A stretch of DNA of 45,664 nucleotides from Bacilli bacterium (lineage in GTDB: Bacteria > Bacillota_I > Bacilli_A > RF39 > UBA660): assembly GCA_017627015.1 (NCBI GenBank), contig JAGAHP010000035.1, positions 1 through 45,664 of the forward strand, in the 5' to 3' direction. Both the position numbers and the translations under genes were made by a program. Below, piece by piece: positions 2,284-22,685 of this stretch. Within the stretch, counting starts at the first letter, position 1; every line of letters starts with the position of its first letter. The notes beneath the pieces were generated by a model. It did no database searches. It was given only the letters and a program-made list of their open reading frames with translations, and was not told the origin of the DNA.

Positions 2284-2979
2284 TCACCCTTCATTTTTTT
2301 GTCTTACAACTTCATATATAGTAATACCAGCCGCAACTGATGCATTCAAACTATTTATTTTTCCACTCATAGGAATACTAATAACAAAATCACATTTATC
2401 TTTAACTAGTCTTGATATTCCGTTTCCTTCCGCACCAATTACTAAACATGTTCTTTCATCATATGATACATCCGTATAAGTTGTACCATCCATATCAGTA
2501 CCATATATCCAAAAACCATATTCTTTTAATTTATCAATTGTTTGAGCTAAGCTATTAACTTCTACTATATTTATATTGTTTAGTGCTCCAGCGGATACTT
2601 TCATAACAGTAGAATTAATTTCTACACCTCTTCTTTTAGGTATTATAATCGCATCTACACCAGCAGCTTCAGCAGTTCTTATTATCGCACCTAAATTATG
2701 AGGATCCTCTAAATGATCAAGCATAACTATAAATCTATCATTTAGTAAATCATCTAACTTACCATATTTATAATCTTCTATTTCTAAAACTATTCCTTGA
2801 TGATTACCTTTATATTTCTTATCTATATCTCTTTTATCCATTTTAATTGTCTTAATATTATTCTTTTCTATATAATTTAGAATCTTTTTATCATCAAATG
2901 TTTTAGATATAATTACTTTCTTAATTTCCTTACCGCTATCAATTACTTCTTCCGCAACATTTCTACCAAATACTATCAT
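2284..2979 (-). CDS. rlmB: 23S rRNA 2'-O-methyltransferase RlmB (SpoU/TrmH family)
   Basis: RlmB methylates the ribose of G2251 (E. coli numbering) in the 23S P loop. The 231-residue protein has an N-terminal substrate-binding domain (VFGRNVAEEVIDSGKEIKKV) and the SPOUT knot with its hallmark motifs: DHLEDPHNLGAIIRTAEA (motif 1), CLVIGAEGNGISRLVKDKCD (motif 2) and IPMSGKINSLNASVAAGI (motif 3). The start overlaps the mrnC stop by 4 nt (ATGA). It ends in TGA, showing that TGA is a stop here. Confidence 0.95.
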   Translation of the reverse strand: MIVFGRNVAEEVIDSGKEIKKVIISKTFDDKKILNYIEKNNIKTIKMDKRDIDKKYKGNHQGIVLEIEDYKYGKLDDLLNDRFIVMLDHLEDPHNLGAIIRTAEAAGVDAIIIPKRRGVEINSTVMKVSAGALNNINIVEVNSLAQTIDKLKEYGFWIYGTDMDGTTYTDVSYDERTCLVIGAEGNGISRLVKDKCDFVISIPMSGKINSLNASVAAGITIYEVVRQKNEG

Positions 2980-3356
2980 TTTAATACCTCCAATATTATA
3001 TTAAATAGTTCATCTATTCTTTCTTTATTATTATCTAAATATAAATAACCAAATAAACATTCAAATCCAGTAGCCCATTTATATGTAACTATATCAGTAT
3101 TTTTAGGATGTGAATAAGTAGAAGCATTTCTACCTCTTTTAACATAATCTATTTCTGTTTCGGTTAATATATTATTCTCTATAAAATAGTTAATAAATTC
3201 ACACTGCTTTTTAGCTGTTACAAAATTCATTGCTTCCTTTTGTAATTTATTAACTTTACTTATACCTGTACTAATTAAATAATCTCTAACTTTTAATTCA
3301 TATACTGAATCACCTAAATAAGCAAGTGATAATATATTTATTTCATTTATCCCCAT
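2976..3356 (-). CDS. mrnC: Mini-ribonuclease III
   Basis: Mini-III is an RNase III catalytic domain without a dsRNA-binding domain; it matures the ends of 23S rRNA precursors in Bacillus. The 126-residue protein shows LAYLGDSVYELKVRDYL with the catalytic acidic residue, the KGRNAS-like RGRNASTYSHPKNTD segment and the ATGFECLFGYLYL helix. It is translationally coupled to rlmB by a TGA/ATG overlap and begins behind the terminator of the giant upstream gene. The ribosome binding site is AGGTGG. Confidence 0.94.
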   Translation of the reverse strand: MGINEINILSLAYLGDSVYELKVRDYLISTGISKVNKLQKEAMNFVTAKKQCEFINYFIENNILTETEIDYVKRGRNASTYSHPKNTDIVTYKWATGFECLFGYLYLDNNKERIDELFNIILEVLK

Positions 3357-3399
3357 TTTCTTTCACCACCTATATAATAACACATTTTTATAAATAATA

Positions 3400-3430
3400 A
3401 AAAAGAGAATTAATCATTAATTCTCTTTTT
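3400..3430 (-). terminator. Rho-independent terminator of the giant surface-protein gene
   Basis: A perfect 15-bp inverted repeat (3400-3414 with 3416-3430) has A and T tracts at its ends. It contains the stop codon of the giant gene (3412-3410). Symmetry could let it act in both directions. Confidence 0.75.
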
Positions 3431-6400
3431 ACGATTAATAAACATATAAATACCAAATAAAGCACTTAATACAGCCATAGAAACAATTAGAATTATTCCT
3501 TGTGACTTGTGTTCTAAATCATATTTATATAATAGACCAAATACTGATGAACCTACATTAGATGAAGCATTTGGATTTAAACAAATACCATTTTCATCAA
3601 ATTGATAATTTACTCCGTCTATTTCGTACGAACCGTTTACATAAGCATCACAATCTACATAATTATTGCTATCTCCATCTAATTTAGAGAAATAGAACCA
3701 ATTATCATCTTGATCTTTAACCCAACCCATCTTAGCAATACCATTTTCTATATAATATAGTCTATTTTCACCACTAAGATTAGGTAATACTTGGAATCCA
3801 TCTGCTTTAATAACACCATGATCATAATATGACCATTGTTGATCTAGTAAATGATCTTGTGGAGGTTGAACAGATTCACTATTAATTAGTTGCCATCCAT
3901 GAAGTCTCCACTCAGCATATAATGTTATATTAGCTGAATAAGTATTCGCTGGAATAGTTCCTCCATTATCATAATGAGTACCTTGTCCATCAGCACTAGT
4001 ATTCCAACCAGTAAACTCATAATTATAATCTGAACCACTATTAGTAAATGAATTTAATACTAAAGTATTAGCATTAGCTGGATTAATTACTTGATCATTC
4101 ATAGTACCTGTTCCACCATTTGCATTAAACGAAACATTAATACTTGTAGTTGTATCTATCCACTGTGCATATAACTTAGTATATTTATTTATAGATCCAG
4201 CAGGAATAGTACTTCCATCAGAGAAACTAGTTCCACTTCCATCAGAAGCTGTATTCCATCCACCAAATACATAATCACCATTAGTAAATGTATTAGTATT
4301 TAATGTATTTAAAACAGTTGAATTAATAACTTGCATGTTCATTGTGCCTGTTCCACCATTTGCATCAAAATCTATACCTATAGATGTCTTATCAGTGAAG
4401 TATCCTGGATTATCATTATATTCATCTATTCTTGCATAGGCTTTATCAGTTTTTGAAGAATTAAATGTTGTTCCCCAGCCACCAACTAAGTTTATATCTC
4501 CAGTGAACATACTAGAAGAACTTTTTACTGATGTTGCAACAAAAGAATTAGTTGCATATATTGTAGTTAGTTTTCTACAACCATGGAACATAGCACTCAT
4601 AATTGTTACTTTACTTGTATCAAATTTATCGCCTAAATCTAAACTGGTTAAACTACTACAGCTGGCAAACATTAGTTCCATATTTGTAACACTGCTTGTA
4701 TCAAATTTGTCGCCTAAATCTAGACTCGTTAAACTGCTGCAATCACTAAACATAGCACTCATAGTTGTTACATTACTTGTATCAAATTTGTCGCCTAAAT
4801 CTAAGCTGGTTAAACTGCTACAATTATAGAACATAACAGATATATCTGTAACAGCACTTGTATCAAATGAAGATACATCAATATTTGTTAAACCTTTTAG
4901 ATTACTAAACATATATGAACTACTTGTATTTAAACTAGGATTTGTATCTTCACTCCACCAATATATAGTTCCATTATCATACCACATATAGATTGGTGTA
5001 TTGTATGTTTCGTTTGATATTGATACTATATTATCACTTGTCATAGAACTTATATCTGGCCTTGTACTTGACTTTTGTATTGATGTTATATTTGTATCTG
5101 ATGATGAATCTGTTGCAGATGCATTACCTGCTAATCTTTTCATTTTAGCATTTACATTTTTCCCTGTATCGAACATTGCATTTACTTCCATCCATTTTGC
5201 ATATAATTCTTTATTATTTAAAGAATCAATATTATCTATGACAGCTTGTTCATCATTATAACTTGTACCTGAACCATTTTGTTTTGTATTCCATCCAGTA
5301 AATTTATAACCTTGTTTTGTTGGTTCTTTGTAAGAAGTACTATCATAATATGAATTATTAACATACTTAATAATATTTGATGTTACATCTTGTTCAAATT
5401 CACCATTATTCGCATCAAAACTTACTGTTTTTACATTATCCCATTTAGCAATATATCTAGCTGAACTATTTGGAATTGTTTCACTAGTAACTTCTACACC
5501 TGTTTGTATATCAGTCCACCATCCTAAGAAGACATAACCCTCTCTAGTTGGTGTTGGTAGTGTTCCTAATGCTGAACCTTGATTAATATTCTTATATGTA
5601 GGACTTACTGTTCCACCGTTTGCATCAAACTCAACAGTGTAGAAAGCTTGTCCATTATAATTTATACATCTTCCTTCAGAATCAAATTCATAAGATACTC
5701 CATCTATAGTCTTAGTTACACTTCTATAAGCATTTGCATTTACATAACCATTACTTTGGCCATTTCCATCATCATCCTCTGTACTAAAGTAATAATAATA
5801 TCCACCATAGTTTAACCATCCAAGATGAGCTACCCCATTAACAAAGTAATATTTTTGCTCTTGTCCATATAAATCATTTAATAAATGGAAACCAGATTCT
5901 ATTTTTGTACCATTATCATAATATACCCATTCTTGTTCTAATAAATGCTGTGATGGAGGATTTAATGACGATCTATTTTGTAACATCCATCCTTCTTTTG
6001 CAGTAAAGTATCCCGGGTTACCATTATATTCATCTATTCTTGCATATTCTTTACCTGTATTTGAAGAACTATATTTTGTTCCCCATCCTCCTACAATTGA
6101 TTTACAATTAAAGAACATATTTGAAGAATCAGTAATATTAGTAGTAACAAATAATGGAGATGCATAAATAGTTATTAAACTTTTACAACCATAGAACATG
6201 CCACCATTTGATTTTACAATACCCATGTTTGGAGAATATGAGTCTGGAATATCAACAACCCCATTCATTTTAGTTACTTGACTTGTGTCAAAAGAACTTA
6301 AATCTAGATAAACTAATTTTTCACATTGCCAGAACATGGCTTCCATATTAGTTACTTTTGATGTATCAAAAGAGCTTAAATCTAGTTCTTCTAAGCTTTG

Positions 6401-9400
6401 ACAATTAGAAAACATATTATACATATATTTTAAACTACTTGTATTAAATGTACTTAAGTTTATTCTTTTTAAATTTTGACAACAACTAAACATTGAATTC
6501 ATATTTGTTACTTTGCTTGTATTAAATGATGTTAAATCTAAACTTGTTAATTCATAACAAGCTAAAAACATTTGTCTCATATAAACTACATTGCTTGTAT
6601 TAAAATTACTTAAATCTAAAGATAATAAATTATGACACCTTGCAAACATATCTGACATATCTGTTACTTTGCTTGTATCAAAACTACTTAGATCTACAGA
6701 GGTTAAATAGAAGCAACTAGAGAACATATCTGACATATCTGTTACTTTGCTTGTATTAAAACTTCTTAAGTCAAGTGATGTTATAATCTTACAACAAGAA
6801 AACATAGAATGCATCTTGGTTACGTTGCTTGTATTAAAATTACTAAGATCTAAACTTTGTAATACGTAACATTCATAGAACATATATGACATATCTGTTA
6901 CATTACTTGTGTTAAAGTTTATTACAGATAACGATGGTAATGATTTGCATTGATGAAACATCCATGACATATCTTCCACACTTGATGTATTAAAAGAAGA
7001 CAAATCTATTTGGGTTAATGAATTACAACAAGAAAACATAGAATGCATATTTGTTACATTGCTTGTGTCAAAACTAGTAAGATCTAAACTTAATAAGGAA
7101 CGACAACTTGAAAACATCAGTGTCATATTAGTTACACTTGATGTATTGAAATTTGATAAATTCAAGTTTTCTAAACTTTCACATATACAGAACATCCACG
7201 ACATATCGGTTACTTTACTTGTATTGAATGATGTTAAATTTAAACTTTCTAATTTTTTACAACTATAAAACATATTATTCATAGTAGTGACATTGCTTGT
7301 ATTAAATGAACTTAAATCTAAACTTGTTAGGCTATTGCATTCTGAGAACAGACGTATCATACTTGTTATTTTACTAGTATTAAATGATGTTAAATTTAAA
7401 CTTTCTAATTTTTTACAACTTCTAAACATATAATTCATATCTGTTAATTTACTAGTATTAAATGATGTTAAATCTAAACTTGTTAAACTGCTACATTCTG
7501 CGAACATACTGGTCATATCTGTAACATTACTAGTATTAAATGATGTTAAATCTAAACTTGTTAAACTGCTACATTCTCTGAACATACTGGTCATATATGT
7601 TACTTTACTTGTATCAAAGTTATCTAAATTAAGAGTAGTAATTGACTTTAGTTTATAAAACATATATGAACTATATTCATTTAAATATGTGTTTGTTGTT
7701 TCTGCCCACCAATATATTGTTCCATTTTCATACCACATATATATTGGTACAACAGATTCGCTTGATGACACTATATTGTCACTTGTCATTTGACTAACAT
7801 CTGGCATTATAGAAGATTTTTGTATACTTGTAATATTTGTGTCATCAGTACTGTATGAGGCAGATGCATTACCTGCTAATTTTTTCATTTTTTGATTTAC
7901 ATCATAACCACTATCAAAAGTAGCGGATGCTTCTATCCATTGAGCGTATACTGTCTTATCAGATAAGTTAGATATAAGAGCCTTTTCATCAGAATAAGAT
8001 GTTCCTGTGCCATCTTGTGATGTATTCCATCCGACAAACTTAAATTCATCTCTAGTTGGTTCTTCATATAATTTATCCGAAATAGTTTCGTACGGAGTAA
8101 CTACTGCATAATAACCATAGTATGCATTTGATGCATTAGAATAGAATGCAAATGTAGCTGTATTCCCTTCTATGTCAAATTCTACTGTTGTAATAGTATT
8201 ATTTCCACCAGTATATGTTTTTAATTGTCCCTTTGACATATTTCTTGTTACTTCACCATCATATGTACCTTTGAATACGTAAACGTAATCATAATTTACT
8301 TGTGTACCATATTTTAATTTAACATGCAATTTTTTTGCATTTTCAAACGTAACAACATCTTTAGTAGCTAAATTATTTTGATAAGAATCCGATCTAATAC
8401 CAGTGTCACTTATATTAGATGTATGGGAATATTTTTCTGTAGTTGTATTTTGGTATACTACTTGTCTAGTTGTTTCATCATCATCGAACTTACCACCATT
8501 TGCATTTAAAGTAACAGTATAATAAGGATTCCATTTAGCATATATTTTCATATCACCTGTTACAATAGTATCAGATGTTACTTCGCTTGTTAAATTACTG
8601 TTTTTGTACCATCCAATAAACGTATTTCCTAACTTTGTTGGTGTTGGTAATGGTCCTACTTCAGTACCATAATCTCTATTATAAGAACTTACTTCAGAAC
8701 CACCATTACTTTCAAATGATATAGTATATTTATTAGCAGTCATTTTAGCATAAACTGTAGTATTTTGTGTTGGTGTATATGTATTATCTATTTGAACATT
8801 ATCAACCATCCAATAATCTAACGTATATCCTGTTTTCACATATACAGGTAATTCTCCAATGGAATCTCCTTGATTAATATACTTGTAATCTACTAATTTA
8901 TCTCCATCTTTGAATGATATAACATATTCCCCTGACATTGATTTAGAATTGAAGTAACCAGGGAAATTTTCTCCCATGTCATAATGCGCATATTCTTTAT
9001 CTATATGATCTTCTGAATAGACTGTTCCTTGTCCTCCTACAAGATTTATATCACCATTAAACATTGCTCCAGATGATGTAACTTGGCTTACAACAAACAA
9101 GTCAGATACTGTTATACTTTCCAAACCAGTCATGCCATCAAACATATAAGACATATTTGTTACTTTACTTGTATCAAATGATCTTAAATCTAAATTCTTT
9201 ATAGAACTAGCAGAACCAAACATATGGGACATATTTGTTACATCACTAGTATCAACGTTATTTAAAGAAATACTCTCTAGTGAACTCATTGAACCAAATG
9301 AATCACTACAACTTGTACCAAAATATACATTATCCATTATTAATGTCTTTAATGAATTTGGAATTGACATACTTCCATGAATTGAATCTGCAGGATACTT

Positions 9401-12400
9401 TACAAAACTCCAATTACTTAGGTTTAATTTAATTAACGAGGAACAATAATAGAACATTGAACCCATACTTGATACATTTGAAGTATTAAACATACTTAAA
9501 TCTAATGATGTTAATGAGGAACAACCATTAAACATAGAATCCATATTTGTTACTTCACTTGTATCAAATGAACTTAAATCAAGTTCTGTTAATGAGGAAC
9601 AACTATTAAACATAACACTCATATTTGTAACATTTGAAGTATCAACATTATTTAAAGAAATTTCTTCAACTCCAGATAAACCACCAAATCCATAGTACAT
9701 GTTAGATGGTAATATAGCATTGTCCATAATTAATGTTTTTAAAGAACTAAACCCTCCAGAAGCGTTCATCATTAATGCTCCTTGATTTATATTACTTAAA
9801 TCCCAATTACTTAAATTTAATTCAATTAAAGATGAACAAGTATTAAACATTGCATTTATGTTTGTTACGTTTGAAGTGTTGAACATACTTAAATCTAATT
9901 CTGATAGCGACGAACATTTATAAAACATTGCTTCCATAGTTGTTACGTTTGAAGTATTAAAATCACTTAGATCTAATTCTGTTAAAGATGTACAATTTCC
10001 AAACATGTAATACATATTTGTAACATTATTTGTATCAAAACCATCTAATTCTATTTTCTTTAAATTTGTACAATTTCCAAACATAAAACTCATATCTGTA
10101 ATTGTTGTTGTGTTAGCATTATTTAGTTTTATTTCCTCTAAACCGCTAAGACCATTATTATAAAAATCCTTTAATGAAGTTAAACCACTAAAATCCCAAT
10201 TATTCATATTTAAAGTTTTTAAAGTAGTAGTGCTAGAAAAAATATCATACATATTGGTTACATTAGATGTATCAAAATCACTCAAATCTAGATTTACAAA
10301 TTTGGAACCAACAAACATACCAACCATTTTTGTAAGACTATCAGTCTGAACATTATCAAAATTTACTTCCTGTATATCAGAACCACCAAACATATCTGTT
10401 GTATTTTCAACTTTTCTTAAATCTGATTCGCTAAAATCTAATGATGGAACTTTTGTACCTTGGAACATTGCTACCATTGTTGTTACTTTACTTGTATTTA
10501 ATTTAGTTAAATCAAGTTCTGTAAATGTAGAACCACCAAACATAAAATTCATATTTGTAACATTTCTTGTATCTAAATAGCTTAAATCTATTGTATTAAT
10601 TTCTTGAAAATTTGCAAACATAAAAGACATATCAGTAACATTAACGGACGACATGTTTTCTATATCAATACTTTGTACTTTTGGCAATCCTGAGAACATA
10701 TATGAACTATCTTGATTTAAATATGCATTTGATGCCTCAGTCCACCAATATATTATTCCATTATCAAACCATGCATAAATAGGTATATTTGAATTTTCTG
10801 ATGAAACAATATTATTTGAATCCATAGTAGAAATATCTGGTTGAACATTAGATTTTTGTATCGAAACAATATCATCAACCGGTGTTATAGCTTCATTAAT
10901 AGTATATTTGTCACCACCATAGTATTGAATATAACTTTTTGGTTCACCTACTGACAATTCTGTTCCTGCTAATCCTTTGATTTTAACAATAAATTCCTCT
11001 CCTGAAGTAAATTCCGCAATTGGTTCACGCCACTTTGGTGTTAAAACTATATCATTATTTACTATATAATCTGATGTTATTTTTATTCCAGTAGTTATAT
11101 CTAAATACCAACCTTCAACTACAAGGTCTCCTTTTGTACCTGTAGGAAGATCTCCTATAGCAGTTCCTTCACCAACATATCTAGTTGTTTCTGATATTTC
11201 TCCACCATTTGAATTAAATGTTACTTTGAATCTTCTTGCTGGAATTACTTCAACGTCAATAGTTTTAGTTATTCCTGAAACAGTTCCAGTAATAGATATA
11301 GTAGTTATACCATCACTTATTCCTGTTACTTTACCAGTTGAATCAACTGTTACTACATCAGTATCATTAGAAGTATATGTAACAGTTTCCATACCTTCTG
11401 GACCAGTTATTTCTATTTGTCTTTCTTGACCTACTTTCATTGCTATTCTTATTGGATTAATTAATGCATTGTCTATTGTTGGAGTCCAATGAGCATAGAA
11501 TGTTACATCATTATTAATAACCGTATCTTTTGTTATTTCTGTTCCAACTGTTGATTCAGTGAACCATCCATCAAAATGATTATTATTCTTAGATGGTGTT
11601 GGTAAATTACCTACTTTAGATCCAGATGGAACTTCTCTTGTTTTTTCAGATATTGTTCCACCATTTGAATTAAATGTTACTGTTTTATTTGTTGGAGTTG
11701 GTGTTGATAATTCTAATTTTAGTGTTTTATAAGTTACTCCACCAATATCTTCAGTTCCTAATATTTTTGTAGAATCTGTTTCTATTTCAGAAATTTTAGT
11801 TTCATCAACATCATTTGATATAGATGGTGTATTACCAGTGTTTGATGTTTTTCCTGCATGATATGTAGATCCTTTTATGATACCATCATAGAATTTATAT
11901 GTATTATTCGCAATAATACCATAAGTTTTACCTTGTATTACAGGTGAATCTTTGATGTTTACATCTTTAACACCAATATTTAAAGTACCTTTTTCGTTAT
12001 AAATAGCGTATATATTAGTTGAAATAATAGTACCACTATTTAAGTTAATAGATCCATTATTTAAGTTATGAAGAGTCGCTCTTATAGTTGATTCAGAGCT
12101 AAAGTATACATTATTTAATGTTAAAGTGCCACCATCATTATATAATGCTTGTTTTGATGTTGTTTTTGAAACAATAATATTTGTTCCATCTACAACCATT
12201 GTACCTGTAGAGTTATTATTAATAGCTCCTTGAGCAACATTAGTGGTAATAGTACCATTTAATAGTTTTAATGTACCATTATTAACAACAACGTTAAGGT
12301 TTCCATTATTACTTAAAGTATGGTTTTGTAGATCTATTACAACATTTTTAGTAGTTGGTATCTCTGCTTTTTCTGCAGTATCTTGTAATAATACTATTTC

Positions 12401-15400
12401 TGTTTCTTCACCAGTTGTAGGAACATTTGATATAGCAGTTGCTAATTTAGTATAGTAAGTATTTCCTATTCTAGCCACTTTATCTGATGGAGCCCATATT
12501 GCATATAAAGTAATACTATCACCATTAGTAATATTTAATACTTCTTCTCCGTCATGATAACTTGTTCCTGAACCATCAGTTTCAGTATTCCAAGAATCAA
12601 ATATACTGTCTGATTTTGTAAATTCATTTGTAGTTAAACTAGTTTTTACATTCTTTGTAATACTTTGATCATTCATTGATCCTGTTCCACCATTTGCGTT
12701 GAATGTTACAGTATAAGAATTACTACTATAAATTGGTTTAACTGTTTGATTACCAGTTATTGTTAATATAGTTGGATTTACTGTTGAATTATTGCTCCAT
12801 CTATCAAACACATAATTTTCTCTATCTTTTGCAGTTAGAGTTAATTCTGTTCCATATGGATAATCTCCAGATAAATCTCCTTCTACTATATATTCAGTAT
12901 CTTCTAATGATAAAGTATAGATTATTCTATTATAAACATATATTACTTCTGTTGATCCATCTCCTGCGATTGTTGTTGTTTGAGTTTGTGGAGTAGTAAA
13001 TCCTGTATATGATTTAGTAAATGGAGTAATAGAAGTATCAGTTGTTCCAAATCTTTCTTCTACTTCATCTGAATATGTAGTTAAATCTAGATTTTGTTTT
13101 CTATGAATTACTTTATACATAGTGTCAGAATTTGCTACATATAATGGTTTAATTGTTACATTATCTGTTAAATCAAATACTAATGGATTATCTGTTTCTC
13201 CATTTGACCAACCTGTAAATGCATATCCAGCCTTTTCTTTTGCAGTTAATGTTACTTCATATCCATATGGATAATCACCTTCTGGAGTAGACTCATTTAG
13301 ATCTATGTCAGTAGTATTATCATATGTTAATGTGTAACTAATTCTATCGTAATCATAAGTTACTACTGTTGTTCCATCTCCTTTAATTGTTGTTGTTTGA
13401 GGAGTTGGTGAAATAAATCCTGTATATGTATTTACTTCTGGTGTTATAGTTGCTCCTGCTTGTCCTGTACTAGTTATTTCTTCTTCAACATCATAACCAT
13501 CTAAAGTTACTTTTTGTTTTCTATGAACTACTTTATATTGAACATCAGATAATTCTTCATAAATTGGAGATATTTCTGTATTTTCAGAAAGTGTAATCGT
13601 TAATGGATTACTTGTTTCTCCATTTGACCAACCTGTAAATGCATATCCTGATATTGGGTTTGCTGTTAAAGTTATTTCTGTTTCATATGGATAATCTCCA
13701 TTTGGAAGAGATGAAGTTACATTAGTTGTATCAGTTAGAGTAAATGTATATCTTTCTCTATTGTAAGTATATGTTACTGAAGCATTACCATCTCCAGTTA
13801 TAGTAATAGTTTGAGCTGTTGGTGAAATAAATCCAGTATAATCAACTACTTCTGGCGTTACTACTGTATCAGTTGTTCCTGTATAAGTAGTTTCTGTTTC
13901 TGTATATGTTTCACCATCTACATTTTCTTTTCTAATTATTACTTTATATGGTGTATTTGTATTTGCAGTATATATTGGGTTTATATTAGTATCTCCAGTT
14001 AAAGTTATTTCTCTTGGGTTAGTAGTATTATTATCACTCCACTTAGTAAATGTATATCCTGCCTTATACTTTGCCTCTAATGTTATAACAGTTTCATATG
14101 GATAACTGCCATCTTCATGAGAAGAAACTACATCTTCTTTATTTGATAAAGTAAAATCATACATTTTTCTAGTATAAATATAAGTTACTACAGTTGAACC
14201 ATCAGGTTTAACTGTTGTTGTTTGTGCTTGTGGTGATACAAATCCAGTATAAGTATGAACTTCTGGTGTTATTTCTTGATTTGTAGTTGCTGTATAATTC
14301 TCTTCTATATCAGTATATGTTTCCATATCAAGATTTTGTTTTTTATGAATTACTGTATATGGAGTATCTGAGTTAGCAACCCACTGAGCATATAAGATTA
14401 CATTTCCTGAAGTAGCTAAATTCTTAACTTCTTCTTCATCTTCATAAGTTGCACCTGTACCATCAGGTTCTCTATTCCATCCAGCGAATGTATATCCTTG
14501 TTTTACAAATGTATTCTTTGTTAATTTTTCTTGTTTATTATATGTCATTTCTTGATCTGACATAGTACCAGATCCAGTATTACTATTAAATACTACATAA
14601 TATTTATTTGCAGTATAACTTGGTGTAATAGTTGTATCATCATCTAAATTAAATGTAGTTGTTAAAGTATTATCTCCATTTGACCATCCTGCAAATGTAT
14701 ATCCTTCTCTTGCTTTAGCTGTTACTGATATTTCAGTTTGATAATAGTATTTACCATTCTTTGTACTATTATCTTCATCAATATAAGTTCTATCAGAAAC
14801 TGCAAAATCATATTTGTTTCTTGTGTAATTATATGTTACTGATGCTTTTCCATCTCCTGTAATAGTTATTTCTTCAGGTTCTGGTGAAGTAAATCCTGTA
14901 TATGTTTTAACTTCTGGTGTTACTTTTGATCCAGTTGTTCCATATAAAATTTCTGTTTCATAAGTTGTATATCCTTCACCATCTATATTCATTTGTTTAT
15001 GAATAACTTTATATGCTGTATCAGTATTACTTGAATATACTGGATTAATTTCAATATTATCAGTTAATGAAATAGTAGTTGTTTGATTAGTATCTCCATT
15101 ACTCCATCCAACGAAAGTATATCCTTCTTTATCTTTAGCAGTTAAAGTTATTTCTGTTTCATATGGATAACTTCCTGATTGATGAGATGAATTAACATCT
15201 TCACTATCATTTAAAGTAAATGTATATGATTTTCTAGTGTAATTATAAGTAACTACTGTTGTGCCATCACCTTTTATTGTTACTTCTGTAGGAACTGGCG
15301 AATCAAAACCAGTATAAGTTTTAACATTTGGCGTTACTTTTGTATCTGTTGTTCCTGTTAAGTTATCTGTTTCTGCTAAATCATATCCATCTAAAGTTAC

Positions 15401-18400
15401 CTTTTGTTTATAATGTTCTACTTTATAACTCGTATTAGTGTTTGCGGTATATGTTGGTTCTATAGATATATTTTTATCTATAGTAATTGTTCTAGGATTG
15501 TCAGTATTTCCATCGTTCCAACCACCGAATGTATATCCAGGAACAGTATTTGCCGTAACAGTTACTTCTGTTCCATATGGGTAGTCTCCTGAAGGTAATG
15601 AACTAGTCATATGTTCAGAGTCATTTACTGTATAAGTATACATTACTCTATCATAGTTATAAGTAACTACAGTTGAACCATCACCCTTAATTATTACTGT
15701 TTGTGTATCTGGGCTAGTAAATCCTGTATATGTTTTAACTTCTGGTGTTACTTCTGTATCTGTTGTTCCTGTTAAGTTATCTGTTTCTGCTAAATCGTAA
15801 CCATCTAAAGTTATTTTTTGTTTATAATGTTCAACTTTATAAGCTGTATTTGTATTAGCGCTATAACTTGGTGTTAAAGATACATCATCTGATAATGATA
15901 TAGTTCTTGGATTATCTGTATTATGATCAGACCATTCAGTAAATGTATATCCTGGAATATCATTTGAGCTAATTGTTATTTCAGTTCCATATGGATAATT
16001 ACCTGGTTCATGTGATGAAGTTACATTTTCTGTATCTGGTAGATTAAATGAATACATAATTCTATCATAGTTATATGTTACTTCTGTTGTACCATCACCT
16101 TTTATTGTAACTGTTTGGGTACTTGGTGATGTAAATCCTTCATATGTTTTAACAGTTGGTGTAACTTCTGTATCTGTTGTTCCTGTTAAATTATCTGTAT
16201 CAGCTAATTCGTAACCATCTAGAGTAACCTTTTGTTTATAATGCTTAACTGTATAACTTGTATCAGTGTTTGCTTTATATCTTGGTTCAATAGTTGTATC
16301 ATCTTCTAATGTTATAGTTCTTGGATTATCCATAACACCATCTGACCAACCATCAAAAGTATATCCTTCTTTCTCTTTGGCTGTTAATTCTATTTCAGTA
16401 CCATATGGATATTCACCAGGTTCTTTTGATGAAATTACATTTTCTGTATCTGGTAAATTAAATTCATACATTTCTCTTAAATATGTGTAAGTTACTGATG
16501 CATTACCATCTCCTGTAATTGTAATAGTTTGAGGATCTGGTGATACAAAACCAGTATAATCTACAACAGTTGGTGTTACCTCTGTATCTGTTGTTCCTGT
16601 ATAAATATTTTCTGTTTCAGTATATGTTTCTAAATCTATATTTTGTTTTTTAGTTATTACTTTATAAGATGTATCAGTATTTGCTTTCCATTTAGCATAT
16701 AGTATTACATTTCCAGATTCTGCTAAATTTTTAACTGTAGCTTCATCAGCGTAGTTAGTTCCAGTTCCATCTGCTTTTGTATTCCATCCATCAAATGAAT
16801 ATCCTACTTTAGTAAATGTACATTTTTTTAATACTTCATCTGCATCATATGTCATTTGTTGATCAGACATACTACCAGATCCAGTATTATTATTAAATAC
16901 TACATAATAAGTATTTGCATTATATATTGGAGCAATATTTAAATTTTCATCGATAGCAAACGTAGCTGGATTATCAATTTCTCCATTATTCCAAGAACTG
17001 AATGTATATCCAGGAACAGTATTTGCCGTAATAGTTACTTCTGTTCCATATGGATATTCTCCTGAAGGTAATGAACTAGTCATAGTATCAGGATTAGTAA
17101 TTGTATAAGTATATATTTCTCTATCATACTTATATTCTAATTCTGTTGATCCATCTGATTTTATTGTTATTTCTTGTGGTTCTGGGGAAGTAAATCCAGT
17201 ATATGTTTTAGTTTCTGGAGTTACTTTTGTATCTGATGCACCATATAAATTTTCTGTTTCCTCTAATTCATATCCATCTAGAGTTAATTTTTGCTTTAAA
17301 TGTTTTACTACATATTTAGTATTTGAGTTAGCTGAATAATGAGCTGTATATGTTTTATCTCCTGTACTTCCTTTTTGAATTGTTACTAGAGTTTGTAACG
17401 ATTCACCATTTGATCCTGTCCAACCACTAAATGTATATCCTGTCTTAGTTGGATTATTTAATGTAATTGTATCTTCTACTGTATACGTAGATGGATTAGA
17501 TGCAGATCCTCCATCTAGATTATAAGTAATATTATAATTATTTATATTATATCTTGCTTTTAATGTTGTATCACTTGTTACATCTACAATAGTAGTACTT
17601 TCTATTTTTTGGTCACCTAAATACCAACCAGTAAATGTATATCCTGGTTTAACTGCTTCAGGTAGATCACCATATGTTTCACCATATGTTCTTTCAATAC
17701 TAAATAATTTTTCTCCACCATCAGTATTAAAACTAATAGTATAAGTTTCTGCTATAAATTGGGCATATAATGTAACAGTTCCTGAAGTAGCTAAATTTTT
17801 AACAACAGCTTCATCTAAATATGGAGTGCCTGTTCCATCTGCTTTTGTATTCCATCCAATAAATTTATTACCTAGTTTTGTAAATGTATTTTTATTTAAT
17901 GCTTTTTCTTCATCATAAGTAAATGTTTGACTAGCCATTTCACCAGTTCCTGTATTAGCATTAAATTCTACTACGTATGTTTTAGCAGTATATATTGGTC
18001 TTATTGTTGTATTTTCAGTTAAAGTAATTGTTACTGGGTTAGTAGTTTCTCCATTTGACCATGATGAAAAATCATAACCTTCTTTTTCTTTTGCAGTTAA
18101 AGTTATTTCTGTTTCATATGGATAGTTTCCTGAAGGTAATGAACTTATTACATCTTCGCTATCATTTATAGTAAATTTATATTCTTTTCTTTCATACTTA
18201 TATTCTACTAAACTAGTACCATCTTGTTTTACAGTTATTTCTTGTGGCTCTGGGGAATTAAATCCTTCATATGTTTTAACAGTTGGTTTTACCTTAGTTC
18301 CGTAAGGCGCGCTAAAAGTTTCTTCAAGTACTGTATTATATGAACCATCTAATTGTTTTTGTTTATGAATAACTTTATATTCTACTTCACTATGAGCAGA

Positions 18401-19528
18401 ATAATTAGCAGTATATTCTTTATTTCCTGTGCTTCCTTTTGGAATAGCAACATTCTTTTCTGGTGTATCTCCGTTTGATCCTGTCCATCCAACAAATTCT
18501 ACTCCTTCTTTTTGGGCATCACTTAAAATAATATCATTGCTTTCCACAGTATAAGTAGATGGATTTGTTGTAGAACCTCCGTCTAAGTTATAATTAATAG
18601 AATAATTGATAATATTATATTTTGCTTTTAAAGTAACATTGCTTGTTAAATTAACAATTGATTCACTTGTAATTTTTTGGTTACCTAAATACCAACCAAT
18701 AAAATAATATCCTGTTTTAACAGCAGTTGGTAATGTACCGTATTTTTCTGTATTAATTACTTCTTTTGTTGTAGATTTAGCACCATTTTGATAATCAAAT
18801 GTTACTATAAATTTAGCAGTTTCTTTTTTTTCTTCTTTTTTATCGTCATTATTATTGTTATTATTACCTTGGTTATTATTGCTAGATTGATCATTACTTG
18901 AATCTCCACCAGTTTTTGGATTAATTTTTTCATAAACTGGATACAATCTTGTTCCGTCTTTTAAATTATATTCTTTATCAGTTTTATATTTTGCTTTTTC
19001 TGAACCTTTTTTATCAGAATATCCTAAAAATATATATCCTTCTTTTTCTGGTCCCATTGGTAATTTGACTTTTTCATCACCAAAAACAGATAAAACTTCA
19101 TCTTCAACATATATTTCTTTAAGTTTTCCATAATAAAACTTAATTTTAGTTTTATCTTTTATATTTTCTAAACTTTTAATACTTAATTTAACTTTAGTAT
19201 CTTTTCCGTGTTTTAGTAGTTTTAGTATTTCATCATGTGTAATGTTTTTGTTGTTAATTTCTACTTTGTATAAATAATAATCTTCATCTAAATAATTATG
19301 AATTGTAACGTCGTAAATATATCTATGATTTTTCTTTAAATTTTTAATATAAATTTCGTCATCATCAAAACTATCAACCACTTGTTTGATATTTGTTATT
19401 TTTATTCCCTTGTTATTCATTAATCTAGGACAACCCTTGATCAATAATAAAATTAAAATTATTAAAATTAATATAAAAATAAAAGTTTTTATAGTTCTTT
19501 TATTCACATTTCCATTACCATTATTCAT
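3410..19528 (-). CDS. Giant repetitive surface protein (5,372 aa), membrane segment at each end
   Basis: A surface adhesin-like protein, probably exported and held by the membrane; ligand unknown. Residues 15-30 are an uncleaved-looking hydrophobic anchor, then a 100-residue unique domain and an Asn-rich linker (about 205-243). About 245-2330 hold Listeria/Bacteroides repeats (Flg_new type, with F..W hallmarks such as GYTFTGWYLG) plus eleven MucBP-like modules (YTGFTSPEPQ type). About 2350-2610 look like a beta-helix (NNGTLKLLNGTITTN rungs), 2690-2765 like BIG2. Three cassettes of the bacterial 26-residue surface repeat (DUF285) lie at about 2850-3530, 3870-4510 and 4785-5050. Around 3700-3815 is a possible CUB-like stretch. 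Cell-wall-binding-type repeats (YYF..G..) lie at about 4515-4625 and 5210-5325. The C-terminus has a membrane segment (about 5344-5365) and a basic tail, with no LPxTG motif. Promoter and terminator are its own. Family assignments are by motif recognition. Confidence 0.9.
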   Translation of the reverse strand: MNNGNGNVNKRTIKTFIFILILIILILLLIKGCPRLMNNKGIKITNIKQVVDSFDDDEIYIKNLKKNHRYIYDVTIHNYLDEDYYLYKVEINNKNITHDEILKLLKHGKDTKVKLSIKSLENIKDKTKIKFYYGKLKEIYVEDEVLSVFGDEKVKLPMGPEKEGYIFLGYSDKKGSEKAKYKTDKEYNLKDGTRLYPVYEKINPKTGGDSSNDQSSNNNQGNNNNNNDDKKEEKKETAKFIVTFDYQNGAKSTTKEVINTEKYGTLPTAVKTGYYFIGWYLGNQKITSESIVNLTSNVTLKAKYNIINYSINYNLDGGSTTNPSTYTVESNDIILSDAQKEGVEFVGWTGSNGDTPEKNVAIPKGSTGNKEYTANYSAHSEVEYKVIHKQKQLDGSYNTVLEETFSAPYGTKVKPTVKTYEGFNSPEPQEITVKQDGTSLVEYKYERKEYKFTINDSEDVISSLPSGNYPYETEITLTAKEKEGYDFSSWSNGETTNPVTITLTENTTIRPIYTAKTYVVEFNANTGTGEMASQTFTYDEEKALNKNTFTKLGNKFIGWNTKADGTGTPYLDEAVVKNLATSGTVTLYAQFIAETYTISFNTDGGEKLFSIERTYGETYGDLPEAVKPGYTFTGWYLGDQKIESTTIVDVTSDTTLKARYNINNYNITYNLDGGSASNPSTYTVEDTITLNNPTKTGYTFSGWTGSNGESLQTLVTIQKGSTGDKTYTAHYSANSNTKYVVKHLKQKLTLDGYELEETENLYGASDTKVTPETKTYTGFTSPEPQEITIKSDGSTELEYKYDREIYTYTITNPDTMTSSLPSGEYPYGTEVTITANTVPGYTFSSWNNGEIDNPATFAIDENLNIAPIYNANTYYVVFNNNTGSGSMSDQQMTYDADEVLKKCTFTKVGYSFDGWNTKADGTGTNYADEATVKNLAESGNVILYAKWKANTDTSYKVITKKQNIDLETYTETENIYTGTTDTEVTPTVVDYTGFVSPDPQTITITGDGNASVTYTYLREMYEFNLPDTENVISSKEPGEYPYGTEIELTAKEKEGYTFDGWSDGVMDNPRTITLEDDTTIEPRYKANTDTSYTVKHYKQKVTLDGYELADTDNLTGTTDTEVTPTVKTYEGFTSPSTQTVTIKGDGTTEVTYNYDRIMYSFNLPDTENVTSSHEPGNYPYGTEITISSNDIPGYTFTEWSDHNTDNPRTISLSDDVSLTPSYSANTNTAYKVEHYKQKITLDGYDLAETDNLTGTTDTEVTPEVKTYTGFTSPDTQTVIIKGDGSTVVTYNYDRVMYTYTVNDSEHMTSSLPSGDYPYGTEVTVTANTVPGYTFGGWNDGNTDNPRTITIDKNISIEPTYTANTNTSYKVEHYKQKVTLDGYDLAETDNLTGTTDTKVTPNVKTYTGFDSPVPTEVTIKGDGTTVVTYNYTRKSYTFTLNDSEDVNSSHQSGSYPYETEITLTAKDKEGYTFVGWSNGDTNQTTTISLTDNIEINPVYSSNTDTAYKVIHKQMNIDGEGYTTYETEILYGTTGSKVTPEVKTYTGFTSPEPEEITITGDGKASVTYNYTRNKYDFAVSDRTYIDEDNSTKNGKYYYQTEISVTAKAREGYTFAGWSNGDNTLTTTFNLDDDTTITPSYTANKYYVVFNSNTGSGTMSDQEMTYNKQEKLTKNTFVKQGYTFAGWNREPDGTGATYEDEEEVKNLATSGNVILYAQWVANSDTPYTVIHKKQNLDMETYTDIEENYTATTNQEITPEVHTYTGFVSPQAQTTTVKPDGSTVVTYIYTRKMYDFTLSNKEDVVSSHEDGSYPYETVITLEAKYKAGYTFTKWSDNNTTNPREITLTGDTNINPIYTANTNTPYKVIIRKENVDGETYTETETTYTGTTDTVVTPEVVDYTGFISPTAQTITITGDGNASVTYTYNRERYTFTLTDTTNVTSSLPNGDYPYETEITLTANPISGYAFTGWSNGETSNPLTITLSENTEISPIYEELSDVQYKVVHRKQKVTLDGYDVEEEITSTGQAGATITPEVNTYTGFISPTPQTTTIKGDGTTVVTYDYDRISYTLTYDNTTDIDLNESTPEGDYPYGYEVTLTAKEKAGYAFTGWSNGETDNPLVFDLTDNVTIKPLYVANSDTMYKVIHRKQNLDLTTYSDEVEERFGTTDTSITPFTKSYTGFTTPQTQTTTIAGDGSTEVIYVYNRIIYTLSLEDTEYIVEGDLSGDYPYGTELTLTAKDRENYVFDRWSNNSTVNPTILTITGNQTVKPIYSSNSYTVTFNANGGTGSMNDQSITKNVKTSLTTNEFTKSDSIFDSWNTETDGSGTSYHDGEEVLNITNGDSITLYAIWAPSDKVARIGNTYYTKLATAISNVPTTGEETEIVLLQDTAEKAEIPTTKNVVIDLQNHTLSNNGNLNVVVNNGTLKLLNGTITTNVAQGAINNNSTGTMVVDGTNIIVSKTTSKQALYNDGGTLTLNNVYFSSESTIRATLHNLNNGSINLNSGTIISTNIYAIYNEKGTLNIGVKDVNIKDSPVIQGKTYGIIANNTYKFYDGIIKGSTYHAGKTSNTGNTPSISNDVDETKISEIETDSTKILGTEDIGGVTYKTLKLELSTPTPTNKTVTFNSNGGTISEKTREVPSGSKVGNLPTPSKNNNHFDGWFTESTVGTEITKDTVINNDVTFYAHWTPTIDNALINPIRIAMKVGQERQIEITGPEGMETVTYTSNDTDVVTVDSTGKVTGISDGITTISITGTVSGITKTIDVEVIPARRFKVTFNSNGGEISETTRYVGEGTAIGDLPTGTKGDLVVEGWYLDITTGIKITSDYIVNNDIVLTPKWREPIAEFTSGEEFIVKIKGLAGTELSVGEPKSYIQYYGGDKYTINEAITPVDDIVSIQKSNVQPDISTMDSNNIVSSENSNIPIYAWFDNGIIYWWTEASNAYLNQDSSYMFSGLPKVQSIDIENMSSVNVTDMSFMFANFQEINTIDLSYLDTRNVTNMNFMFGGSTFTELDLTKLNTSKVTTMVAMFQGTKVPSLDFSESDLRKVENTTDMFGGSDIQEVNFDNVQTDSLTKMVGMFVGSKFVNLDLSDFDTSNVTNMYDIFSSTTTLKTLNMNNWDFSGLTSLKDFYNNGLSGLEEIKLNNANTTTITDMSFMFGNCTNLKKIELDGFDTNNVTNMYYMFGNCTSLTELDLSDFNTSNVTTMEAMFYKCSSLSELDLSMFNTSNVTNINAMFNTCSSLIELNLSNWDLSNINQGALMMNASGGFSSLKTLIMDNAILPSNMYYGFGGLSGVEEISLNNVDTSNVTNMSVMFNSCSSLTELDLSSFDTSEVTNMDSMFNGCSSLTSLDLSMFNTSNVSSMGSMFYYCSSLIKLNLSNWSFVKYPADSIHGSMSIPNSLKTLIMDNVYFGTSCSDSFGSMSSLESISLNNVDTSDVTNMSHMFGSASSIKNLDLRSFDTSKVTNMSYMFDGMTGLESITVSDLFVVSQVTSSGAMFNGDINLVGGQGTVYSEDHIDKEYAHYDMGENFPGYFNSKSMSGEYVISFKDGDKLVDYKYINQGDSIGELPVYVKTGYTLDYWMVDNVQIDNTYTPTQNTTVYAKMTANKYTISFESNGGSEVSSYNRDYGTEVGPLPTPTKLGNTFIGWYKNSNLTSEVTSDTIVTGDMKIYAKWNPYYTVTLNANGGKFDDDETTRQVVYQNTTTEKYSHTSNISDTGIRSDSYQNNLATKDVVTFENAKKLHVKLKYGTQVNYDYVYVFKGTYDGEVTRNMSKGQLKTYTGGNNTITTVEFDIEGNTATFAFYSNASNAYYGYYAVVTPYETISDKLYEEPTRDEFKFVGWNTSQDGTGTSYSDEKALISNLSDKTVYAQWIEASATFDSGYDVNQKMKKLAGNASASYSTDDTNITSIQKSSIMPDVSQMTSDNIVSSSESVVPIYMWYENGTIYWWAETTNTYLNEYSSYMFYKLKSITTLNLDNFDTSKVTYMTSMFRECSSLTSLDLTSFNTSNVTDMTSMFAECSSLTSLDLTSFNTSKLTDMNYMFRSCKKLESLNLTSFNTSKITSMIRLFSECNSLTSLDLSSFNTSNVTTMNNMFYSCKKLESLNLTSFNTSKVTDMSWMFCICESLENLNLSNFNTSSVTNMTLMFSSCRSLLSLDLTSFDTSNVTNMHSMFSCCNSLTQIDLSSFNTSSVEDMSWMFHQCKSLPSLSVINFNTSNVTDMSYMFYECYVLQSLDLSNFNTSNVTKMHSMFSCCKIITSLDLRSFNTSKVTDMSDMFSSCFYLTSVDLSSFDTSKVTDMSDMFARCHNLLSLDLSNFNTSNVVYMRQMFLACYELTSLDLTSFNTSKVTNMNSMFSCCQNLKRINLSTFNTSSLKYMYNMFSNCQSLEELDLSSFDTSKVTNMEAMFWQCEKLVYLDLSSFDTSQVTKMNGVVDIPDSYSPNMGIVKSNGGMFYGCKSLITIYASPLFVTTNITDSSNMFFNCKSIVGGWGTKYSSSNTGKEYARIDEYNGNPGYFTAKEGWMLQNRSSLNPPSQHLLEQEWVYYDNGTKIESGFHLLNDLYGQEQKYYFVNGVAHLGWLNYGGYYYYFSTEDDDGNGQSNGYVNANAYRSVTKTIDGVSYEFDSEGRCINYNGQAFYTVEFDANGGTVSPTYKNINQGSALGTLPTPTREGYVFLGWWTDIQTGVEVTSETIPNSSARYIAKWDNVKTVSFDANNGEFEQDVTSNIIKYVNNSYYDSTSYKEPTKQGYKFTGWNTKQNGSGTSYNDEQAVIDNIDSLNNKELYAKWMEVNAMFDTGKNVNAKMKRLAGNASATDSSSDTNITSIQKSSTRPDISSMTSDNIVSISNETYNTPIYMWYDNGTIYWWSEDTNPSLNTSSSYMFSNLKGLTNIDVSSFDTSAVTDISVMFYNCSSLTSLDLGDKFDTSNVTTMSAMFSDCSSLTSLDLGDKFDTSSVTNMELMFASCSSLTSLDLGDKFDTSKVTIMSAMFHGCRKLTTIYATNSFVATSVKSSSSMFTGDINLVGGWGTTFNSSKTDKAYARIDEYNDNPGYFTDKTSIGIDFDANGGTGTMNMQVINSTVLNTLNTNTFTNGDYVFGGWNTASDGSGTSFSDGSTIPAGSINKYTKLYAQWIDTTTSINVSFNANGGTGTMNDQVINPANANTLVLNSFTNSGSDYNYEFTGWNTSADGQGTHYDNGGTIPANTYSANITLYAEWRLHGWQLINSESVQPPQDHLLDQQWSYYDHGVIKADGFQVLPNLSGENRLYYIENGIAKMGWVKDQDDNWFYFSKLDGDSNNYVDCDAYVNGSYEIDGVNYQFDENGICLNPNASSNVGSSVFGLLYKYDLEHKSQGIILIVSMAVLSALFGIYMFINRKKRIND
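4505..4918 (-). repeat. 26-residue-repeat cassette 3 (about four units, three nearly identical)
   Basis: Units of the form MF..CSSLTSLDLGDKFDTS recur about every 27 residues. Three are almost identical at DNA level (about 4590-4860), suggesting recent duplication. A head (F.TGKNVNAKMKRLAGNAS) and a GYF-ending cap flank it. Confidence 0.85.
6110..7668 (-). repeat. 26-residue-repeat cassette 2 (about 18 units of 78 bp)
   Basis: The consensus is MF..C.SLTSLDLSSFNTS followed by NVTDMS.; adjacent units at about 7503 and 7581 are exactly 78 nt apart. This is the TIGR02167/DUF285-type leucine-rich surface repeat. The cassette ends in a cap with VGGWGTKYSS and NPGYFTAK. Confidence 0.9.
9050..10705 (-). 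repeat. 26-residue-repeat cassette 1 (about 17 units, more divergent)
   Basis: Units such as MFGNCTSLTELDLSDFNTS mix with longer insert-bearing units (SSLKTLIMDN type, three copies), so this cassette is older or more diversified than the other two. Confidence 0.85.
12720..18400 (-). repeat. Eleven-copy MucBP-like/Listeria-repeat module array
   Basis: Each module has a beta-rich half (YKV.HKKQ..., YTGFTSPEPQTITIKGDGT, VTYNYDR) and a second half (SSLPSGDYPYGTEITLTAK, GYTFTGWSNGETDNP). The motif YTGF or YEGF occurs eleven times. Three consecutive modules (marks at about 15360, 15774 and 16188) are exactly 414 nt apart, that is 138 residues. Some modules are separated by an inserted GTGTMSDQ-type Flg_new repeat. 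Confidence 0.85.
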
Positions 19529-19601: not shown

Positions 19602-19632
19602 AAAAATAATTGGTTTTTTACCAATTATTTTT
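19602..19632 (-). terminator. Terminator of the lipoprotein gene
   Basis: A 13-bp stem (19602-19614 with 19620-19632), 5-nt loop and U tract. The stop codon of the lipoprotein gene (19627-19625) lies inside the stem. Confidence 0.75.
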
Positions 19633-20092
19633 CACAAGTTGCACCCATTGATTGGTACATTGATTTAATACCTTTTACAGTAATTTTATTTGACTTATTA
19701 ACATATGATTTCATAGCTGGATTATCTTTAACAAATTTATTTAAATTCATCTTAGAGTAATCAATAGTAACTTTTGAAACAACTTTTCCATCTTTATTAG
19801 TTATTTCATACTTATAACCACCATATGAATCATTATTTGCTTTATATTGGCTTTTTAATTGTTTTTCAAAATAAGCTAAAATAGTATTATTTTTTGATTC
19901 TACTGTTTCAGTAGTTACTACTTTATTAACTTCATCTTTAGAAGAATAAACGTTGTATTCTGAAGTAATTTTATAACCACTAGCACTTTGATCAGATTTT
20001 AAAGTACATTTTGTAACTTTATCCTTTCCTAAACATCCAGTTAATAATACTACTAACATAAAAGCAAATGTTAATTTAACAAATTTTTTCAT
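19625..20092 (-). CDS. Small exported lipoprotein, function unknown
   Basis: The 155-residue product begins MKKFVKLTFAFMLVVLLTGC, a lipoprotein signal peptide with lipobox LTGC (Cys20), so it should be lipidated and held on the outer face of the membrane. The mature part is hydrophilic and rich in Lys, Ser and Thr, with alternating short strands (YKITSEYNVYSS, YKYEITNKDGKVVSKVTIDY). This resembles the YehR/DUF1307 lipoprotein type, but I am not sure. It has its own extended -10 promoter and terminator. It sits just upstream of the giant surface gene but appears to be a separate unit. Confidence 0.8.
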   Translation of the reverse strand: MKKFVKLTFAFMLVVLLTGCLGKDKVTKCTLKSDQSASGYKITSEYNVYSSKDEVNKVVTTETVESKNNTILAYFEKQLKSQYKANNDSYGGYKYEITNKDGKVVSKVTIDYSKMNLNKFVKDNPAMKSYVNKSNKITVKGIKSMYQSMGATCEK

Positions 20093-22109: not shown

Positions 22110-22151
22110 ATTATCACCTAAATTAATTTTAACACAAAATAATTATTAGGT

Positions 22152-22685
22152 CTATTTTTTTATATATTTATCAATCAATTCTTTAACAAAAAATTTATAT
22201 TCAATTTCTGATGATGAATTATCTTCTGCTTCTAATAAACAAAGTGGTGGAAAAAGTACGCACCAAAAATTATCACCTTTTCCTTCTCCTAAAGTTACAA
22301 CTAAAGACTCATAATTTCCTTCTTTATAGGTAATACCTCTATATTTTTTCTAAGGAAAATGATTGTAACCATATTTAAGATCAAAAGATTTGTTATAATT
22401 TAATTCTTTAAGTTTATTTCTAGTTATATTATATAACTCTTTTTGGTGTTCATAGAGTATTTTTCTTGTGTCTTCTATAGATTTACTATCTTTTATTAAA
22501 CTAAATATTTCATTTTGAATAGTGTTTCTAACTTGAATTTTTATATTTTGATCATACACAGTATTTGAGTTAGCAATTACTCTAAATCTAATTGCTTCGT
22601 CAGGAATAATATTTTCTTCTTCTTTAAAATTTAAACCTATATATAAAAGACTAATTATTGATAATACTAATAGAATTTTTTTCAT
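22152..22685 (-). pseudogene. spoIIR: Stage II sporulation protein R gene, interrupted by an in-frame TAG
   Basis: SpoIIR is secreted from the forespore and triggers SpoIIGA to activate pro-sigma-E. The first 111 codons encode a signal peptide and the family core (IPDEAIRFRVIANSNTVYDQ, VRNTIQNEIF, YGYNHFP). A TAG stands at codon 112 (22352-22350). The same frame then continues for 65 sense codons with the conserved SpoIIR end: YRGITYKEGNYESLVVTLGE and NFWCVLFPPLCLLE, closing with TAG at 22154-22152. No indel is involved. It follows prmC, the order prfA-prmC-spoIIR being typical. Either a recent nonsense mutation, a sequencing error, or readthrough. Confidence 0.88.

Follow-up and report, generated by a model that had tools for sequence, protein, structure and literature searches.

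The 45,664-nucleotide stretch of DNA analysed here (the window) carries a gene for a protein of 5,372 residues that, as judged from its sequence, is probably a giant, two-ended, adhesin-like protein. In the reading we favour, to which we give a probability of about 0.6, this surface protein is exported by Sec, keeps an uncleaved N-terminal anchor, stops in the membrane at a C-terminal stop-transfer segment and is held as a loop at both ends. Should both ends indeed remain membrane-bound, the cell would present a loop of more than 5,000 residues and so hold a giant adhesin otherwise than by sortase anchoring or by a single C-terminal helix. The source is an uncultured bacterium related to animal-gut bacteria, and the giant may serve in sticking to things, a role suggested by its kinds of domain.

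A preliminary description had placed an uninterrupted frame at 3410-19528, naming no strand. We find this frame on the minus strand, running from 19528 to 3410 with an ATG, 5372 codons and a stop codon, and without an internal stop. In 20 mononucleotide shuffles of the gene's DNA the longest stop-free frame reached 173 codons, and GC at codon positions 1, 2 and 3 of the gene is 0.355, 0.397 and 0.114, the third positions being strongly GC-poor (window GC 26.4%). Both observations argue that the frame is not a product of chance. The mass of the protein is roughly estimated at 0.6 MDa. The features are as follows.

3410..19528, minus: whole gene, 5372 aa, ATG start (ORF reading, shuffles)
19439..19486, minus: N-terminal hydrophobic segment, residues 15-30, probable uncleaved signal anchor (hydropathy, AlphaFold2, cleavage-site scoring)
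19430..19438, minus: juxtamembrane K-G-C, residues 31-33; [KR]xC in 7/7 giants (N-terminus comparison)
19094..19417, minus: N-terminal beta domain, residues 38-145, no Pfam family above cut-off (comparison, AlphaFold2)
18923..19093, minus: B-repeat-like domain, residues 146-202; InlB B-repeat by fold, Flg_new below cut-off
12494..18811, minus: conserved stalk, residues 240-2345; 11 pairs of a 67-residue repeat and an InlB-type B-repeat, with Listeria-Bacteroides repeats
11849..12478, minus: 210-residue segment, residues 2351-2560, one copy in each of seven giants (repeat map)
11285..11413, minus: Big_2 domain, residues 2706-2748 (profile search)
4229..11278, minus: variable middle, residues about 2751-5100 (repeat map, slice identities)
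9140..10498, minus: PARCEL/DUF285 tract 1, residues about 3011-3463 (profiles, repeat map)
8087..8461, minus: CUB-like segment, residues 3690-3814, label weak
6332..7615, minus: PARCEL/DUF285 tract 2, residues about 3972-4399 (profiles, repeat map)
5660..6034, minus: choline-binding-like repeat region 1, residues 4499-4623, below Pfam cut-off
4586..4783, minus: PARCEL/DUF285 tract 3, residues about 4916-4981 (repeat map)
3575..3958, minus: choline-binding-type repeat region 2, residues 5191-5318, Choline_bind_3 just above cut-off
3500..3562, minus: conserved juxtamembrane stretch ahead of the C-terminal segment, residues 5323-5343 (C-terminus comparison)
3434..3499, minus: C-terminal hydrophobic segment, residues 5344-5365 (hydropathy, AlphaFold2)
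3413..3433, minus: basic tail, residues 5366-5372 (translation)
19625..20092, minus: lipoprotein-like gene, 155 aa, DUF1307-like (below cut-off), adjoining the giant
2284-3356: mrnC- and rlmB-like genes (names by reading), adjoining the giant's other side

The two ends of the giant

Hydrophobic segments had been claimed near residues 15-30 and 5344-5365, and both stand out in a Kyte-Doolittle scan (19-residue windows: 3.11 at residue 12, 2.50 at residue 5346, next best 1.18); just two segments in 5372 residues exceed 1.6, one per end. AlphaFold2 models one helix at residues 6-31 followed by a confident beta domain (model mean pLDDT 87), and at the C-terminus a helix at about 5343-5371 with low to middling confidence (mean pLDDT 69). 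A protein database queried with the N-terminus returned eight matches: P0002, with the same length as the window protein and 100% identity over the queried region, the clear relatives P0003-P0007, and the weak matches P0008 and P0009. The C-terminus query returned six matches, and among shorter proteins there was one weak match. A search for the same end-to-end layout, which the preliminary description had suggested, found it in P0003, P0004 and P0005 (4913, 7562 and 7640 aa), complete giants ranging from 4913 to 7640 residues. These four two-ended members are relatives of one group and not independent, P0005 being the most diverged.

The N-terminal segment is common to seven giants (the window protein and six relatives), as a leader of 12-14 residues, an uninterrupted hydrophobic core of 16 residues, then K or R, one residue and a cysteine. 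Scored by the -3/-1 rule, a strict signal peptidase I site is present in 0/7 giants as against 8/8 non-lipoprotein secreted controls, which were hand-picked by eye or as long closed ORFs of the loci (P0010, P0011, two ORFs of L102, one of L165, two of L167 and one of L168; one L102 control has its strict site elsewhere than expected, and a ninth ORF, L168:4289, was left out as having no hydrophobic run). A marginal site occurs in five of the seven giants, I-K-G ahead of C33 in the window protein; in P0007 and G016 this scoring found neither a strict nor a marginal one. It is unlikely, in our view, that the giant is a type I surface protein whose N-terminal signal peptide is cleaved, leaving the C-terminal helix as the sole membrane hold. 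The marginal sites would fit such a protein, and the staphylococcal adhesin Embp offers a parallel, its predicted anchor being a C-terminal membrane region according to the available sections of the source paper (PMC7587433). However, the strict sites seen in every control are missing from all the giants, and cleavage would leave P0007, G003 and G016 without any membrane anchor. An uncleaved anchor, which the preliminary description had considered as a condition for a loop, thus appears the better reading of the segment, despite the marginal sites. As net charge is alike on either side (+2 to +4), the positive-inside rule leaves the orientation of the first segment unfixed.

The [KR]xC boundary after the helix is found in 20 of 34 proteins examined, namely three giants and 17 of 31 others of the order that had been selected by N-terminal similarity, and in 0/76 single N-terminal hydrophobic segments of the rlmB neighbourhoods L001-L080, among which many genes are repeated. 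In L163 and L164, both among the 17, a 33-residue acidic leader precedes the helix, a feature that suits an anchor. We read the boundary as what may be a recurring anchor type of the order. An N-terminal helix followed by [KR]-[GS]-C was observed at L136, L137, L143, L144, L147, L152, L155-L157 and L160-L164, in many cases ahead of an apparent B-repeat.

At the other end, the window protein, P0003, P0004 and P0005 run through a conserved juxtamembrane stretch into a hydrophobic helix and finish with a basic tail, in agreement with the claimed segment and tail, and no LPxTG motif precedes the segment, as had also been stated. The narrow sortase pattern [LIV]Px[TS][GAS] matches the window protein only at 2369 and 4685, neither near the end; it has no match near the end in P0004 or P0005, and P0003 has VPESS 45 residues before the segment. 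A broader pattern also matches NPNAS at 5318, 26 residues ahead of the segment, which by reading is kept in P0004 and P0005 and not in P0003, and which we rejected as a sorting signal for this reason. The proposed contrast with sortase anchoring is a real one, as sortases occur in 13/13 related genomes and a protein of the same order (L168) ends in VPDTG, a hydrophobic stretch and a basic tail. The more distant P0010 (4102 aa), perhaps a two-gene fusion, has a likely signal peptide and, after it, two hydrophobic segments still close to the N-terminus; it also has an NPPTG stretch and a C-terminal hydrophobic segment.

P0007, G003 (L003) and G016 (L133) keep the N-terminus and lack the C-terminal hydrophobic helix. 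Here a diverged juxtamembrane stretch is followed by K.F.LP..AY.LRRYFMG and two or three residues to the end. This soluble tail, LP..AY.LRRYFMG, lies at L003:3502-3558, at L133:1726-1785 and at the end of P0007; a search for its DNA pattern in 385 genomes of the order hit the giant of G003 alone. Two-ended anchoring, as first proposed, is probable for the window protein and P0003-P0005 but is not family-wide: with three relatives lacking the segment it is neither fixed in the family nor needed by all.

It could be argued that the protein is single-ended in function, with the N-terminal anchor alone mattering and the C-terminal helix a dispensable addition or clipped off. At the N-terminus this overlaps the reading that we favour, and it accords with the three relatives that do without the helix and with the restriction of the helix to one group of four. 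Against it, the last 50 residues of the window protein and P0003 differ at one place (49/50 the same, by reading), whereas the preceding domain is far more diverged, and we regard a single-ended function as slightly less likely than a cleaved signal peptide. Because some natural relatives possess the helix and others lack it, what the second anchor contributes can be tested directly.

Quite improbable is a lipoprotein, in which C33 would be lipidated and the preceding segment removed; such a protein would still be two-ended, with a lipid at one end and the C-terminal helix at the other. The cysteine does sit at the same place in 7/7 giants, and the order has a second N-terminal group whose hydrophobic run ends in T-S-C or S-S-C, which fits a lipobox. 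The lipobox pattern bars charged residues at the -2 place, however, and this place is K or R in all seven giants, with F at -1 in P0007, so that the giants have no valid lipobox. The window's own lipoprotein, which has no strict signal peptidase I site, carries a normal lipobox, L-T-G-C. In one case of the T-S-C/S-S-C group (L098) the gene adjoins putative signal peptidase and TasA-like genes (named by reading).

Conserved stalk and variable middle

Pfam and NCBIfam confirm Listeria-Bacteroides repeats, InlB-type B-repeats, DUF285/PARCEL and Big_2 in the giant. TIGR02167 scores 849.7 bits over 33 stretches in the C-terminal half, and DUF285 (PF03382) 718.1 bits over 14 stretches; the PARCEL repeat consists of tandem units of 25-26 residues. 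Of the repeats named in the preliminary description, Listeria/Bacteroides and DUF285 are therefore borne out, but the MucBP-like label is not: MucBP is absent from the whole-piece scan at E 0.01 and, for two representative repeats of the 11, at E 1, where the sole match is aRib (0.032). The two cell-wall-type regions proposed there fared unequally, Choline_bind_3 reaching 27.7 bits against a curated cut-off of 27 at the C-terminal one (residues 5182-5372), but 11.2 bits at residues 4499-4623, which fails. A PDB profile search likens the wall-type repeat ahead of the end to those of clostridial toxin A and choline-binding proteins, with E values of 6.7e-6 and weaker. Dyad symmetry, a trait of PARCEL repeat DNA, was gauged on 26 units: the mean best palindrome fraction is 0.659, and codon shuffles, which are a weak control, give 0.618 (sd 0.061 per unit).

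A repeat map with seeds drawn from the window protein gives the same arrangement in 7/7 giants, namely an N-terminal domain at about 38-145, the alternating stalk and then one 210-residue segment. The stalk has 11 pairs of 67-residue repeat and B-repeat in the window protein, P0003, P0004, P0005 and G016, 13 in P0006 and 8 in P0007; coordinates up to residue 2560 match within about 10 residues among the window protein and P0003-P0005. Beyond residue 2560, PARCEL tracts, Listeria-Bacteroides repeats and CUB-like and choline-binding-like regions vary in number and order among the giants.

Identities in 250-aa slices, taken as best BLAST hits that could pair non-matching repeat copies, follow this division. 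Between the window protein and P0004 they are 87-98% in the first eleven slices (to 2750), 43-72% in the next nine (2751-5000) and 87 and 97% in the last two, from which it follows that the ends are kept and the middle changes. Against P0003 they are 91-96% to 1500, 52-85% on to 2750 and 40-55% after, the last slice mixing the kept end with an insertion; against P0005 they are 49-86% over the first ten slices (to 2500), then 36-48%. Kept ends and a changing middle suggest a system that diversifies the displayed part.

Could the giant be an assembly artefact, with at least two genes fused across collapsed repeats? The gene is rich in repeats and the giant copies of G003 and G016 are broken by contig ends, but P0003, P0004 and P0005 show the same two-ended layout on other contigs, and the kinds and order of domains up to the 210-residue segment are identical in all seven giants, which makes a fusion very improbable. 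The assembly of so repetitive a gene is nevertheless its uncertain part, as the reads are probably metagenomic, and the repeat number may still be wrong.

On the sequences compared, the family appears to combine an N-terminal anchor that is fixed and a stalk that is conserved to about residue 2350 with a PARCEL and B-repeat middle that changes fast and with one of two C-terminal ends. In the two-ended reading, Sec would export the giant while the first hydrophobic helix stays behind as an uncleaved signal anchor. The stalk of small beta domains, to about residue 2350, would carry the chain outward, and the fast-changing middle, with its PARCEL leucine-rich and B-repeat domains, would be the probable binding part; the kind of repeat is what leads us to place the repeats outside. 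The choline-binding-type repeat near the C-terminus may contact the wall. The second helix and basic tail would stop translocation, leaving some 5,300 residues outside as a loop. This membrane lock would be optional in the family, three relatives carrying the short conserved tail instead. It might even be possible, though we put this forward tentatively, that the family (about 0.5-0.8 MDa) pairs a fixed uncleaved [KR]xC anchor and stalk with two exchangeable locks, the membrane helix or the soluble LP..AY.LRRYFMG tail, and that the display region between them is swapped and diversified. The helix form would then be a loop clamped at both ends, and the soluble tail a new kind of C-terminal attachment signal.

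Locus and distribution

The N-terminal 208 residues match in 9 of 292 relatives of G003 at E 0.001, strongly only in G003 and G016, and in 43 of 385 genomes of the order sample, strongly only in G003. With RlmB as a probe, the closest loci belong to uncultured Bacilli metagenome-assembled genomes; for the first ten, the sources, where stated, are cattle, sheep and buffalo, 'Lapin' and 'RUG' being read as rabbit and rumen.

Beyond the giant's neighbours lie divIC, yabP and a yabQ-like gene (below the Pfam cut-off). divIC and mrnC adjoin within 300 bases in 12 of 14 scorable loci and are 1.3-1.7 kb apart in two (L007, L008), the other 66 of the 80 loci being unscorable because the pattern failed or the contig was short. 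The two loci nearest by RlmB, L001 and L002, have no giant at this place, and their genomes give no match to its N-terminus. In G003 the giant starts directly after divIC (L095); a C-terminal giant piece, on a different contig (L003), is followed first by a gene for a lipoprotein with 60% identity to that of the window, then by one more gene and by mrnC. The two pieces probably belong to a single gene in the same position. The start of the giant of G016 is flanked by the gene of a 503-aa membrane protein, with parB/parA-like genes beyond it, and beside neither giant piece was a lipoprotein gene seen. The lipoprotein gene accompanies the giant in two of the three genomes. Given the absences in L001 and L002 and the differing neighbours in G003 and G016, the giant's place is a variable insertion site.

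Between divIC and mrnC in L007 (4908-5807) and L008 (8623-9522), and ahead of mrnC in L003 (4160-5113), there is a gene coding for about 300 aa, among the first of which stands RVKDYSKN or RIKDYSKN; the divIC-mrnC interval appears to accumulate insertions. A stage II sporulation protein R-like gene at 22110-22685 of the window (minus strand) has one in-frame stop at 111 aa, its counterparts in L001, L002 and L095 reading 176-178 aa; the organism may have lost sporulation, or the stop may be an assembly error.

Relation to known surface proteins

Sortase-anchored internalin and B-repeat adhesins have B-repeats, Listeria-Bacteroides repeats, a hydrophobic C-terminal segment and a basic tail; unlike them, the giant has no LPxTG motif before the segment. 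The Pfam and NCBIfam libraries contain models of FIVAR, GA, DUF1542 and EsaA, and at E 0.01 they gave no match in the giant to the first three (both halves) or to the EsaA family. A C-terminal membrane segment, a trait of Ebh/Embp, is present in the giant by hydropathy.

Embp is the closest giant known to us (PMC7587433, PMC9302970, in the portions available). Ebh/Embp are likewise very large (Embp 1 MDa) and repeat-built with a predicted C-terminal membrane region, and the main text on Embp, as far as available, does not contain the word LPXTG (PMC7587433). Embp has a YSIRK export signal, however, in place of which the giant has an uncleaved-looking anchor. Among wall-spanning proteins with several helices the closest known to us is EsaA (EsaA/YueB of type VIIb secretion), described in the available part of the source as having a large extracellular part, two to six membrane helices and wall-spanning length (PMC10765036), but the giant is far larger and its domains are unrelated. 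Giant frames with several helices are also known from Omnitrophota, as an excerpt of that work records (PMC10066038). The literature searched held no match for the combination of such size, two end segments, a variable middle between kept ends, and two alternative C-terminal ends. Already known are the repeats and PARCEL proteins with two membrane segments. In its available part, the 2010 survey of PARCEL proteins sorts them into lipoproteins and one-helix, two-helix and many-helix types, predicts most tracts to lie outside and lists proteins with two membrane segments (PMC2996958). The giant has tandem repeats of 25-26 residues (TIGR02167/DUF285) and two membrane segments in common with such proteins, which belong to the BspA-like DUF285 surface proteins, and differs from them in its size, its fixed B-repeat stalk, its own N-terminal domain and the choline-binding-type repeat before the C-terminal helix.
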